Assembly: GCA_001899305.1 (NCBI GenBank)
Contig: MKWL01000021.1
Location: forward strand, 62,001-126,000
Length of the DNA stretch: 64,000 nucleotides
Direction of reading: 5' to 3'
Source: Thiobacillus sp. 0-1251
GTDB lineage: Bacteria; Pseudomonadota; Gammaproteobacteria; Burkholderiales; Thiobacillaceae
The notes beneath the pieces were generated by a model that was given only the letters and a program-made list of their open reading frames with translations, did not search any database and was not told the DNA's origin. This document shows, one piece after another, positions 34,921 to 42,770 of this stretch. The translations under genes and the position numbers were made by a program. Numbering within the stretch: the first letter of the stretch is position 1; every line of letters starts with the position of its first letter.

Positions 34921-34955
34921 AACTGACCCAGTGACGCATGTCACTGGGCCAGTTT
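34921..34955. terminator. Bidirectional hairpin between acnA and the sigma-54 regulator
   Basis: ACTGaCCCAGTGAC-GCAT-GTCACTGGGcCAGTTTT forms a long stem with one internal mismatch and a T run on the plus strand. It overlaps the last codons of the convergent regulator gene. Confidence 0.6.
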
Positions 34956-36224
34956 TCGGTAGAGCGTCCGTTCACTGATTCCCAGCTGCGCGGCCAGCGA
35001 CTTGCGGTCGCCGCCATGGTGCGCCAGCGCCCATTGCAGATAGCGCAGTTCTGCCGTTTCCAGCGGCACGATGTCGTCCACGCCCGGCATGCCTGCCTCG
35101 TCGCTTTTCAGTTCGGGTGGCAGATGCTCCTCCAGCAGGGTATCGCCGTCGGCCATCAGCATCGCGCGTTCGATGATGTTGCGCAGTTCGCGGACGTTGC
35201 CCGGGTAATCGTAGGCCTGCAGCCGCATGCGTGCGGCCTCGCTCAGTGTGTAGGCCCGCCCCGGCGCCAGCCGCGCCAGCAGCGTCTCGGCCAGCAGGGC
35301 GATGTCGCCGCGCCGTTCGCGCAAGGCTGGCAGGTGGATCGGGAACACGCTGAGCCGGTAATACAGGTCGCGCCGGAAACTGCCGCGCTCGACCATGGTC
35401 TTGAGATCGCGATGAGTGGCGGCGATCAGACGAAAATCGGCACGCAGCGTCTCCACGCCGCCGACCCGGCGAAAGGTCCCCGTTTCCAATAGACGCAACA
35501 GCTTGACCTGCAGGCTCAACGGAATGTCACCCACCTCGTCCAGAAACAGCGTGCCGCCTGACGCCGATTCGACCAGGCCGATCTTGCGCTGGCTGGCGCC
35601 GGTGAACGCACCTTTCTCATAGCCGAACAGTTCGCTCTCGAACAGGGTTTCGGTCAGCCCCGAGCACTCCACCACCACGAACGGCCCATGCTCGCGCCGG
35701 CTCTGCTGGTGGATGGCCTGCGCGACCAGTTCCTTGCCGGTGCCCGATTCGCCCAGCAACAGGGCGGCGGTGTCCGACGGCGCCACGCGCCGGACCAGTT
35801 CGAGCATGCGATTGAAGGCGGCCGACTTGCCGACCATGCCACTTTCGGCGGGAAAACTGCTGGCCTCGCGTACCGTCAGCATGCGTTCGACGAAATACGC
35901 GATCTTGCCCGACGTACCGATGATCGGCGTCAGCTCGACGTCGACATGCTCCTCGCCGCGCGGCGTATGGTGCAGATGCAGCACACGCCGGGGCTCGCCG
36001 CTGACCCGGCTGGCTGCGAGCGGGCAGGATTCACCGCATTCGTCGCAGGGCCGGCTGTAGCCATGCGATATCGCATAGCAAAACTGCCCGACCACATTCC
36101 GCTCGCCGGCATACACACGGCGATAGGCCGCATTGGCCGCCAGAATCCGGTAATCGATCCCCATGACGATCTGGGGATCGGGATGGGTCTCAAGAAAGCT
36201 GATGAGTTCGTTGGCCGGTGACAT
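34941..36224 (-). CDS. Sigma-54-dependent activator with Cys-rich PAS domain, FisR-like
   Basis: 427 residues: N-terminal PAS domain (about 5-115), AAA+ sigma-54 interaction domain (about 125-350) with Walker A GESGTGKE, the GAFTGA loop ([11 protein letters not shown]) and Walker [12 protein letters not shown], then a Fis-type HTH at the C-terminus ([20 protein letters not shown]). The PAS domain contains C49, C60, C63 and C67. C49/C60/C67 have the 11- and 7-residue spacing that I recall for the three sensing cysteines of FisR from Cupriavidus, an activator that responds to sulfane sulfur and switches on SQR genes. It is divergent from the cytochrome bd/SQR cluster, which has a sigma-54 promoter, so it is the obvious activator. 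Confidence 0.88.
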
Positions 36225-36240
36225 TGTCTTATGCCACTTA

Positions 36241-36286
36241 TGTCATTTGAATCACAAAACATTAACAGGTTTTGTCATAAATGACA
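36241..36286 (+). promoter_or_regulatory. Candidate upstream activator sites for the FisR-like regulator
   Basis: TGTCATAAATGACA at 36273-36286 is an inverted repeat of TGTCAT with a 2-bp spacer; a second TGTCAT with a weak mate begins at 36241. The full site is about 110 bp upstream of the predicted sigma-54 start, the normal distance for an enhancer, and lies just before the regulator's own start, allowing autoregulation. Confidence 0.5.
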
Positions 36287-36370
36287 GTCCGTGCTTTCAA
36301 CGCCTGTCACAAAATTGATCTATTCTTTTGAAACCAAAGAGAAATAAAAGCCCCCACCTGGCCCAGGGAG

Positions 36371-36386
36371 TTGGCACGGCACTTGC
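36371..36386 (+). promoter_or_regulatory. Sigma-54 promoter of the cyd/SQR cluster
   Basis: TTGGCACGGCACTTGC is a near-perfect match to the -24/-12 consensus YTGGCACG-N4-TTGC. It predicts transcription from about 36397-36398, only a few bases before the cydP ATG at 36403. Confidence 0.88.
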
Positions 36387-40729: not shown

Positions 40730-41013
40730 TGGCCATGCTCGATCGCGGGTGGGTACGCGGCATCACGCTGGCCGCGGCTTTCGTGCTCATGCTCCTCGTC
40801 ACGCTGTTTCCGCGACCGTTGACCGTCGAGGATGGCAGCCCCATCGGGCACGGCACGCTCATGCTGATCATGTGGGGGCTGGCGGCAGGCTTTGTGCACG
40901 GCATCGGCTTCATTCCACGCAACAGGATCCTGCGCACATTGCTCGGCCCTGTCGTCGCCTGGCTCGGCATGGGCATGGTGCTGGTTTTCTATGTGCAATA
41001 TTTCCTGAGGTAG
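40726..41013 (+). CDS. ybgE: Cyd operon protein YbgE
   Basis: 95 residues with three hydrophobic segments. The core LMLIMWGLAAGFVHGIGFIP is the YbgE signature. YbgE is encoded in cyd operons of many Proteobacteria; its function is unclear. The ATG overlaps the stop of the SQR-like gene (ATGA). It ends 4 bp before the haemoglobin gene, so the cyd operon clearly encloses the flavoprotein. Confidence 0.88.
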   Translation: MMAMLDRGWVRGITLAAAFVLMLLVTLFPRPLTVEDGSPIGHGTLMLIMWGLAAGFVHGIGFIPRNRILRTLLGPVVAWLGMGMVLVFYVQYFLR

Positions 41014-41017
41014 CGAC

Positions 41018-41449
41018 ATGCAGGCGACCGAACAATCCGTCCTGACCCCTTACCAGCGCATCGGCGGCGACACCGTCATCCGCAAGCTGGTCGACCGCTT
41101 CTACGAATTGATGGACGAACTGCCGGGGACCTATGCCGCGCGCAAGCTCCATCCGGCCGACCTCACCGAATCCGGCAACAAGCTGTTCGATTACCTCTCC
41201 GGCTGGCTGGGCGGCCCGCAACGTTATGTCGAGAAGCACGGCCATCCCATGCTGCGCCGCCGCCATCTTCCCTACGCCATCGGCCCGAACGAGCACGACC
41301 AATGGCTGTTGTGCATGCAGCTGGCGTTGGCGGACACGGTGACGGACGAGGCCCTGTGGGCCGCCTTGTTTGCGCAGTTCGTCCAGCTGGGCGAACACAT
41401 GCGCAACCGGCCCGAGACCACGCCCATGCGGCAACCCGGCGGACGCTGA
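41018..41449 (+). CDS. Truncated haemoglobin, group II (TrHbO-like)
   Basis: 143 residues with a 2-on-2 globin fold. It starts [20 protein letters not shown] and has the group II hallmark [14 protein letters not shown], with the proximal histidine, plus [19 protein letters not shown] before it. Group II truncated haemoglobins bind O2, NO and also sulfide, and are linked to oxygen delivery or NO/sulfide protection of terminal oxidases. Sitting inside a cyd/SQR operon it is best read as an accessory of the bd oxidase. It begins 4 bp after ybgE. Confidence 0.9.
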
Positions 41450-41498
41450 CCGCAGCCCTCCTTTTCATGTCCACTTTTCTTCAATCGAACTCTCCTTC

Positions 41499-42770
41499 AT
41501 GGCACACATCGTCATCCTCGGCGCAGGCACGGGCGGCACGCCCGCTGCCTACGAAATGCGTCACCTGCTCGACAAATCGCACACCGTCACCCTGATCAAC
41601 GCGTCGGACACCTTCCAGTTCGTGCCGTCCAACCCCTGGGTTGCGCTGGGCTGGCGCGAGACGCGCGAGACCACGTTCAAGCTGCGGCCCTACCTGGAAA
41701 AGAAGGGCATCCAGTTCATCGCCCAGCGCGCCGACACGATCGACGCGACCCACAGCCGGATCCACCTGGCCAACGGCGACGTCGTCGACTACGACTACCT
41801 GGTGATCGCTACCGGTCCCCGACTCGCCTTCGACCTGGTGCCGGGCGCGGGCCCGGATGGCGGACACACGGAATCGGTCTGCACGGTCGAGCATGCCGAG
41901 CGCGCGTATGAACACTATCTCGAATTCCTGAAAAACCCTGGCCCGGTGGTGATCGGCGCGCTGCCTGGCGCGTCGTGCTTCGGCCCTGCCTACGAATACG
42001 CGATGGCGCTGGAAACCGACCTGCGCCGCCGCAAGCTGCGCCACAAGGTGCCGATTACCTATGTCTCGTCCGAACCCTATGTGGGGCACCTTGGGCTGGG
42101 TGGCGTGGGCGACTCGAAGGGACTGCTGGAGGCCGAATTCCGCCAGCGCCACATCAAGTGGATCACCAACGCGAAAACGACCCGGGTCGAGGCGGGGAAA
42201 ATGCATGTCGAGGAAGTCGACGATTTTGGCGAGAAGGTGCGTGAACACACGATCGATTTCAGTTACGCGATGATGCTGCCGCCGTTTCGCGGCGTGGCGG
42301 CGGTCGCCGCAGTGGAAGGCCTGTGCAATCCCGGCGGTTTCGTGATCGTCGACGAATATCAGCGCAGTCCGACATACCCCAATATCTATTCGGCCGGCGT
42401 GTGCATCGCGATTCCGCCGGTCGAGCAGACGCCGGTCGCCACCGGCACGCCCAAGACCGGCTACATGATCGAATCGATGGTCACCGCCATCGTCCACAAC
42501 ATCGCCGATGAACTCGCCGGCACGCCGCCCAGCCATACCGGCACCTGGAGCACGATCTGCCTGGCCGACATGGGCGATACCGGTGCAGCCTTCGTCGCGA
42601 TCCCGCAGATCCCGCCGCGCAACGTCACCTGGGCGAGGAAAGGCAAGTGGGTGCACCTGGCCAAGGTGGCGTTCGAGAAATATTTCATGCGCAAGATGAA
42701 AACTGGCAACTCGGAGCCGCTGTACGAGAAATACGTCCTGAAGGCACTCGGCATCAAACGTCTCAACTAA
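41499..42770 (+). CDS. sqr: Sulfide:quinone oxidoreductase
   Basis: 423 residues, close in pattern to the structurally known Acidithiobacillus ferrooxidans SQR ([54 protein letters not shown]). The three catalytic cysteines are present: C128 (SVCTVEH), C160 ([13 protein letters not shown]) and C354 (TICLADMGD). It oxidises sulfide to polysulfide at the membrane and reduces quinone, which cytochrome bd then reoxidises. The start at 41499 is fixed by homology; the longer frame overlaps the globin gene. It is the last gene of the predicted FisR/sigma-54 operon, 49 bp after the globin. Confidence 0.95.

Follow-up and report, generated by a model that had tools for sequence, protein, structure and literature searches.

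Predicted control of a sulfide-resistant cytochrome bd oxidase and a sulfide:quinone oxidoreductase by a FisR-family activator in a sigma-54-controlled operon of Thiobacillus

The window considered here is a stretch of 64,000 nucleotides from Thiobacillus sp. 0-1251 (span 62001-126000 of its contig, in a genome of 3.66 Mb), and the system in question is a locus of nine genes within it, one regulator gene on the minus strand and eight genes on the plus strand. We conclude that this locus probably places a sulfide-resistant cytochrome bd oxidase, together with a sulfide:quinone oxidoreductase (SQR), under the control of a FisR-family activator in a sigma-54-controlled operon. According to the mechanism proposed, the activator would bind two dyads (at 36232 and at 36273), per- or polysulfide formed from sulfide would, as sulfane sulfur, cross-link Cys49 and Cys60 of its PAS domain, the counterparts of FisR Cys53 and Cys64, and its AAA+ domain would then open the sigma-54 promoter at 36372. 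The eight genes would be co-transcribed in dependence on rpoN, with sulfide or polysulfide as the signal. The cytochrome bd thus produced would not be inhibited by sulfide, the true SQR would pass electrons from sulfide to the quinone pool, a second flavoprotein (FP1) would probably use a different sulfur species to reduce quinone too, and a truncated haemoglobin (trHb) may bind sulfide, O2 or NO. The features of the locus are as follows.

34941 to 36224, minus strand: FisR-family sigma-54 activator, PAS_4 - AAA+ (Sigma54_activat) - Fis-type helix-turn-helix (HTH_8) (Pfam, NCBIfam)
36232 to 36245: putative activator dyad (upstream activator sequence, UAS) 1, TGNCA-N4-TGNCA (pattern match and family conservation)
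36273 to 36286: putative activator dyad (UAS) 2, TGNCA-N4-TGNCA (pattern match and family conservation)
36372 to 36386, plus strand: predicted sigma-54 -24/-12 promoter, TGGCAC-N5-TTGC (pattern scan)
36403 to 36621, plus strand: cydP, putative small bd oxidase subunit (NCBIfam NF045611)
36611 to 38203, plus strand: cydA, cytochrome bd subunit I (PF01654, E 9.3e-175)
38213 to 39349, plus strand: cydB, cytochrome bd subunit II (TIGR00203)
39361 to 39498, plus strand: cydX (PF08173, TIGR02106)
39581 to 40729, plus strand: FP1, SQR-fold Pyr_redox_2 flavoprotein (Pfam; model with pLDDT 93.3)
40726 to 41013, plus strand: ybgE (PF09600)
41018 to 41449, plus strand: trHb, bacterial-like globin (PF01152; 2xyk, E 8.9e-40)
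41499 to 42770, plus strand: SQR of Acidithiobacillus ferrooxidans type, Pyr_redox_2 (3sz0, E 1.9e-175)

Pfam and NCBIfam scans bore out the preliminary description of this locus, in which the regulator is divergent from cydP-cydA-cydB-cydX-FP1-ybgE-trHb-SQR. The intergenic gaps from cydP through SQR (-11, 9, 11, 82, -4, 4 and 49 bp) also agree with the tight spacing of at most about 80 bp and the ATGA overlap between FP1 and ybgE that it reported. The genes cydA, cydB and cydX are all present and intact, as in an operon of bd-I type, and CydB is the only one found in the genome, being its single PF02322 match. A genome profile search located rpoN and four COX1-family genes in the host. The window and Escherichia coli share these gene families, which in E. 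coli stand in the order cydA-cydB-cydX-ybgE under the control of ArcA/Fnr; unlike the E. coli operon, that of the window adds FP1, trHb and SQR.

The evidence for control lies in the region between the divergent genes. The site at 36372-36386 is the sole perfect match to TGGCAC-N5-TTGC in the window and ends 17 bp upstream of the cydP start. Taken singly it is weak evidence, because at least one perfect site appears when the window is shuffled in 25 of 100 trials; it is conservation that makes it strong. In the 320 bp facing the orthologous regulator, 43 of 55 family loci hold a site that matches the consensus at 10 or more of its 12 positions, versus 0.83 expected. Two TGNCA-N4-TGNCA dyads stand 41 bp apart in the window, with no further copy in the 64 kb, and the same 55 loci hold 49 copies versus 0.58 expected (at least one in 38 loci, at least two in 11). 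The spacer of 4 is specific, since any other spacer from 0 to 12 yields 0 to 9 copies. Among the 24 perfect sigma-54 sites of the genome (7 for the reversed pattern), the cyd site is the only one with a dyad at most 300 bp upstream. A search for 5-mer palindromes gave a weak signal, with 6 loci at best against null maxima of 2-3.

The degenerate dyad was picked out by eye from printed family sequences; the family figures are therefore not independent, and the fair tests are those made in the order and class sets. The family set held 55 or 56 of 57 regulator matches, depending on the analysis, the order set 40 of 56 places outside the family, and the class set the best 20 of 43 non-own places plus two plasmid loci; locus L338 was left out. 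A sigma-54 site, a dyad, and both together were found in 47, 41 and 35 of 56 family loci (expected 1.6, 0.7 and 0.0), in 21, 24 and 15 of the 40 order loci (expected 1.35, 0.35 and 0.0), and in 13, 12 and 7 of the 22 class and plasmid loci (expected 0.65, 0.175 and 0.0). Such a pattern suggests that the regulator binds the dyads.

The pairing of regulator and oxidase recurs among relatives. In 117 family genomes, 57 regulator matches (53 genomes) and 43 bd-type cydA matches (39 genomes) were found; among them are 26 divergent regulator/cydA pairs 372-438 bp apart, and a pairing so frequent among these numbers of matches is not due to chance. Within the genus of the window, the pair is present in 21 of the 23 genomes that contain cydA. 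Both genes occur in 35 genomes, the regulator only in 18, cydA only in 4 and neither in 60 (Fisher p 4e-12, uncorrected for kinship and for incomplete genomes). On a quick regulator tree, in which 43 of 130 inner branches are weakly supported and long branches are flagged, cydA linkage needs 16 changes, which makes repeated gain or loss probable, within the limits that open forks and long branches set on this count. In the plasmid collection, relatives came only from Cupriavidus metallidurans and Pseudoalteromonas, the one other match being a Rhodobacter kinase. On plasmid NZ_CP099918.1 of Pseudoalteromonas xiamenensis, a regulator only distantly related (PAS region, 35%) faces cydP-cydAB-cydX-ybgE. 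There (L290, 3907-6618, minus strand), CydA and CydB are fused in a frame of 903 amino acids that matches the Pfam families of both subunits and is annotated as cydB. At two other loci (L060, L167), short cydA pieces lie beside an intact regulator, as if the oxidase had been lost and the regulon retained.

Genes away from the regulator served as controls. For cydA, 43 of 50 rows were used (E 5.5e-74 or better), and seven weak, fragment or CIO-type rows were dropped. Where cydA adjoins the regulator (25 family loci), a dyad is present in 19, a sigma-54 site in 22 and both in 16. Among non-adjacent bd-type cydA promoters a dyad is found in one of the 14 read out of 17, two of them with less than 500 bp upstream; the other three (G086:C123, G038:C189, G070:C186) were excluded as gene pieces or contig ends. 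This exception, L174, has a 12/12 sigma-54 site and two dyads before its cydA. Control would thus follow adjacency, because 13 of the 14 lack a dyad, with one apparent case in trans; the same count rules out that every cydA is under the regulator. Neither site precedes cydA in G088 (86% complete; L161), which alone in the genus has cydA but lacks the regulator, and neither was found at L136, which has the regulator and no adjoining cyd genes. Three CIO-type promoters were read, and no dyad was seen in them. Trans control as the general state of FP1 genes away from the regulator was also rejected, as only 3 of 22 have a sigma-54 site and dyad upstream.

The PAS region of the regulator carries Cys49, Cys60, Cys63 and Cys67. 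The first, second and fourth occur without exception in the 133 regulators aligned (55 from the family, 40 from the order, 22 of the class or plasmid set and 16 of the paralogue, after 6 of 139 located regulators shorter than 300 amino acids were excluded), and Cys63 is kept in 52 of 55 family regulators. The spacing of 11 from Cys49 to Cys60 equals that from Cys53 to Cys64 in FisR, in which the third cysteine is Cys71. As in a FisR-type activator, an N-terminal regulatory domain, an AAA+ domain, a C-terminal Fis-type helix-turn-helix and a divergent sigma-54 promoter accompany this spacing; the assignment is one by domains and cysteine spacing, the FisR of Cupriavidus pinatubonensis lying outside the compared set. 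The portions available of the FisR literature describe three conserved cysteines (PMC9774590) and, for C. pinatubonensis, a tetrasulfide joining Cys53 and Cys64 (PMC9495516). By analogy, the FisR mechanism might be transferred to the window regulator on the strength of its PAS cysteines.

The description of the regulator as FisR-like was supported by domains, cysteine spacing and promoter, but it needs to be narrowed, as the genome also contains a separate FisR-type gene, of which that of the window is a paralogue. This separate gene, at C1:349113, is 40% identical in the PAS region and faces an SQR gene whose product is 62% identical to the SQR of the window, which rules out the window regulator as the sole FisR of the genome. 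In the paralogue and 20 chosen relatives, the facing SQR is 59-65% identical to that of the window and a sigma-54 site is present; the SQR count of 21 of 21 is biased, because the 20 loci were chosen from the paralogue matches, many since an SQR-like match beside them was already listed. The two groups of regulators separate on the quick tree (support 100), so the window regulator belongs to a distinct clade, with its own dyad.

Of the two flavoproteins that the preliminary description called SQR-type, the one at 41499-42770 proved to be a true SQR, whereas FP1 has the SQR fold only, its middle catalytic cysteine being replaced. The former aligns end to end with the solved SQR 3sz0, and all three reference cysteines (128, 160 and 356 of A. 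ferrooxidans SQR, according to PDB titles) are present and aligned. Both this protein and the A. ferrooxidans-type SQR are alike in full-length match and cysteines; the gene of the window closes a cyd operon instead of directly facing a FisR gene. For the FP1 model, the nearest folds are the SQRs 3hyv (E 2.2e-32, TM 0.89) and 3szw, and NDH-2 folds also match, ranked lower. FP1 Cys123 and Cys334, aligned with cysteines one and three of SQR, occur in 82 of 82 sequences, and Cys274 in 76 of 82. Relatives of FP1 were found at 63 loci in the genomes collected, and the titles of many of these records name sulfur oxidisers; those outside the family (L089-L134) include Guyparkeria, Halothiobacillus, Thioploca and Marithrix. 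In the stretches of L089-L134 examined, none of the regulator or cyd genes was found upstream of FP1, and L099 alone has a cydB match, more than 8 kb away. A record titled Rhizobium sp. (L072, JAIBEL010000052.1) holds the operon with an FP1 93% identical to that of the window; its title looks wrong. The trHb matches 2-on-2 haemoglobins, 2xyk best, and we take it to be of group II.

Partner genes were counted over 9 kb on the divergent side of the regulator, with a gene caller that overlooks small genes and reports some open reading frames on the antisense strand. In the family (n=56), the partners are trHb (29), cydA (25), FP1 (20), a NifX-like gene (20), SQR (7), rhodanese (5), flavocytochrome c (3) and persulfide dioxygenase (PDO, 2), and all seven loci with SQR also carry cydA. 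The order loci (n=40) have cydA in 14, spread over seven families, trHb and the NifX-like gene in 7 each, PDO in 5, SQR and rhodanese in 4 each, and FP1 and flavocytochrome c in 1 each. The class and plasmid loci (n=22) have SQR in 9, cydA in 5, trHb in 2, and PDO and rhodanese in 1 each. Gene order is partly kept, the arrangement cyd - (FP1) - ybgE - trHb being a recurrent one. Four order loci of one genus (L251, L253, L254, L269) combine the regulator with cydAB, PDO, trHb and rhodanese, the PDO of L254 matching 4ysb and ETHE1 4chl; SQR is added in the latter three, and L251 ends with its contig. Behind the regulator stand cydA, FP1, trHb and SQR at L249, in another family, and cydA, rhodanese, trHb and SQR at L305 of the class set. 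At L060, the cydA and cydB pieces are followed by c-type cytochromes, a flavoprotein matching flavocytochrome c sulfide dehydrogenase 1fcd (E 6.3e-125), and then FP1. A further set recurs beside the regulator at L052, L067, L146, L164 and others, comprising Nitro_FeMo-Co (NifX-like), DUF6858, a SLAC1/TDT channel, Tll0287-like, AhpC-type peroxiredoxin, ZIP, DUF302 and DUF2141 genes.

Several findings weigh against control of oxidase and SQR as we read it, in addition to the basis of the FisR assignment given above. A good sigma-54 site is missing from 9 and a dyad from 15 of 56 family loci; the numbers are 19 and 16 of 40 in the order set, and 9 and 10 of 22 in the class sample. Nine non-adjacent cydA promoters have no dyad although the genome has the regulator. 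Of the 21 loci of the FisR-type paralogue no more than 5 have the dyad, and therefore the two regulators seem not to share a binding site. NifX-like, SLAC1/TDT channel, DUF6858 or ccoG/fixG genes lie opposite some regulators of the clade, and therefore the signal could be broader. Arg159 of FP1, invariant in 27 of 27 sequences, occupies the position of the middle SQR cysteine (Cys160), which rules out FP1 as a plain second SQR; because of this arginine, we infer that FP1 acts on another sulfur substrate. Finally, the synteny survey found that the regulator-cydAB pairing recurs across families, but a true SQR is present in just 7 of 56 family loci, in which trHb and cydA are commoner. The earlier idea of a complete chain in one operon is thus not supported as a general rule, and the sulfide-to-O2 chain predicted for the window is better seen as one local form of a regulon that is looser elsewhere. 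It is evenly balanced, in our judgement, whether FisR-family regulators form a widespread switch for sulfide-resistant respiration. In that case a single clade of sulfane-sulfur sensors would have become linked, time and again, to bd oxidase, to sulfide oxidation through SQR, PDO or flavocytochrome c, or to the two within one operon; in sulfur oxidisers it would also control FP1, as a new SQR-fold quinone reductase (Arg for Cys) with a different sulfur substrate, and trHb as a sulfide buffer.

Other explanations of the locus were weighed against this reading. The regulator might sense nitrosative or oxidase-inhibitor stress (NO, cyanide), with cyd, trHb and peroxiredoxin as targets and SQR as a passenger. 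This is unlikely, even though trHb is the commonest family partner (29 of 56), peroxiredoxin occurs at some loci, and bd oxidase also guards against NO and cyanide, as stated in the part available of PMC11837568: SQR is found in 9 of the 22 loci of the class and plasmid set, and PDO, rhodanese and flavocytochrome c elsewhere. In addition, the cysteines of the PAS domain are spaced as in FisR, and the Pfam scan found no GAF domain, such as NorR carries. A similarly small probability attaches to regulation of cydPABX alone, with FP1-ybgE-trHb-SQR driven by other promoters. The gaps between cydX and FP1 (82 bp) and between trHb and SQR (49 bp) would leave room for this, and 22 of 40 family FP1 loci are without the regulator in the stretch examined, some of them on short contigs; however, the window scan, which did not cover sigma-70 promoters, revealed no second perfect sigma-54 site or dyad, an overlap and a 4-bp gap flank ybgE, and the gene order cyd - (FP1) - ybgE - trHb recurs. 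Least probable of all is a response to low O2 or redox, the link to sulfur genes merely reflecting a sulfur-oxidising life style: bd is a high-affinity oxidase, and at six order loci (L250, L252, L255, L256 and L286 of one family, and L281; L250 and L255 by sequence likeness) the place of cyd is taken by ccoG/fixG, tied to cbb3 oxidase, as the first or second divergent gene, but the FisR-type cysteines are invariant, the regulator is paired with SQR without adjoining cyd in 8 of 22 class and plasmid loci, and the Pfam scan found no O2-sensing domain, though PAS domains can hold cofactors.

Control of oxidase and SQR by a FisR-family activator has its closest known parallel in the FisR-sqr-pdo regulon of C. 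pinatubonensis and Acinetobacter baumannii, which, as far as the available text goes, shares a sigma-54 activator divergent from sulfide-oxidation genes, a sigma-54 promoter (PMC7315123) and a spacing of 11 between the cross-linked cysteines (PMC9495516). Unlike that regulon, the divergent operon of the window begins with cydPABX. In the accessible portion of PMC7315123, SQR of A. baumannii is controlled by FisR, cydAB is induced by sulfide but not assigned to FisR, and the route from SQR through quinone to bd is already drawn. As predicted for the window regulator, CydE of Alishewanella and CioR of Chromobacterium are local regulators of a sulfide-resistance bd oxidase, but the available text presents them as GbsR/MarR-type repressors rather than sigma-54 activators, and the CydE paper, in the part seen, states that expression is unchanged by sulfide (data not shown there). 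The terms 'fis' and 'sulfide' are absent from the available text of a paper on CO tolerance by cydA2B2 of Cupriavidus necator (PMC10164946). A search of the open-access literature, with subscription papers mostly outside its scope, returned no paper joining FisR with cyd control, in keeping with the earlier statement that such control was undescribed. What appears to be new, as read from the sequence, is the physical and regulatory joining of SQR and bd under a FisR-type activator.

Sulfide poisons haem-copper oxidases, and little is known about how cells match a sulfide-resistant oxidase to the supply of sulfide. In E. coli, the bd oxidases are resistant to sulfide (PMC4815019), and cydAB is induced by sulfide in several bacteria with no sensor named (PMC7315123), each as given in the part available of the source. 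If true, direct control of cydAB by a FisR-family regulator, with a defined dyad and promoter, would be a testable answer in sulfur oxidisers. FP1 may be a sulfur enzyme of a new kind that is linked to quinone. The answer on cydAB would extend to heterotrophs, for instance Pseudoalteromonas, in which a cyd operon lies opposite a relative of the regulator.

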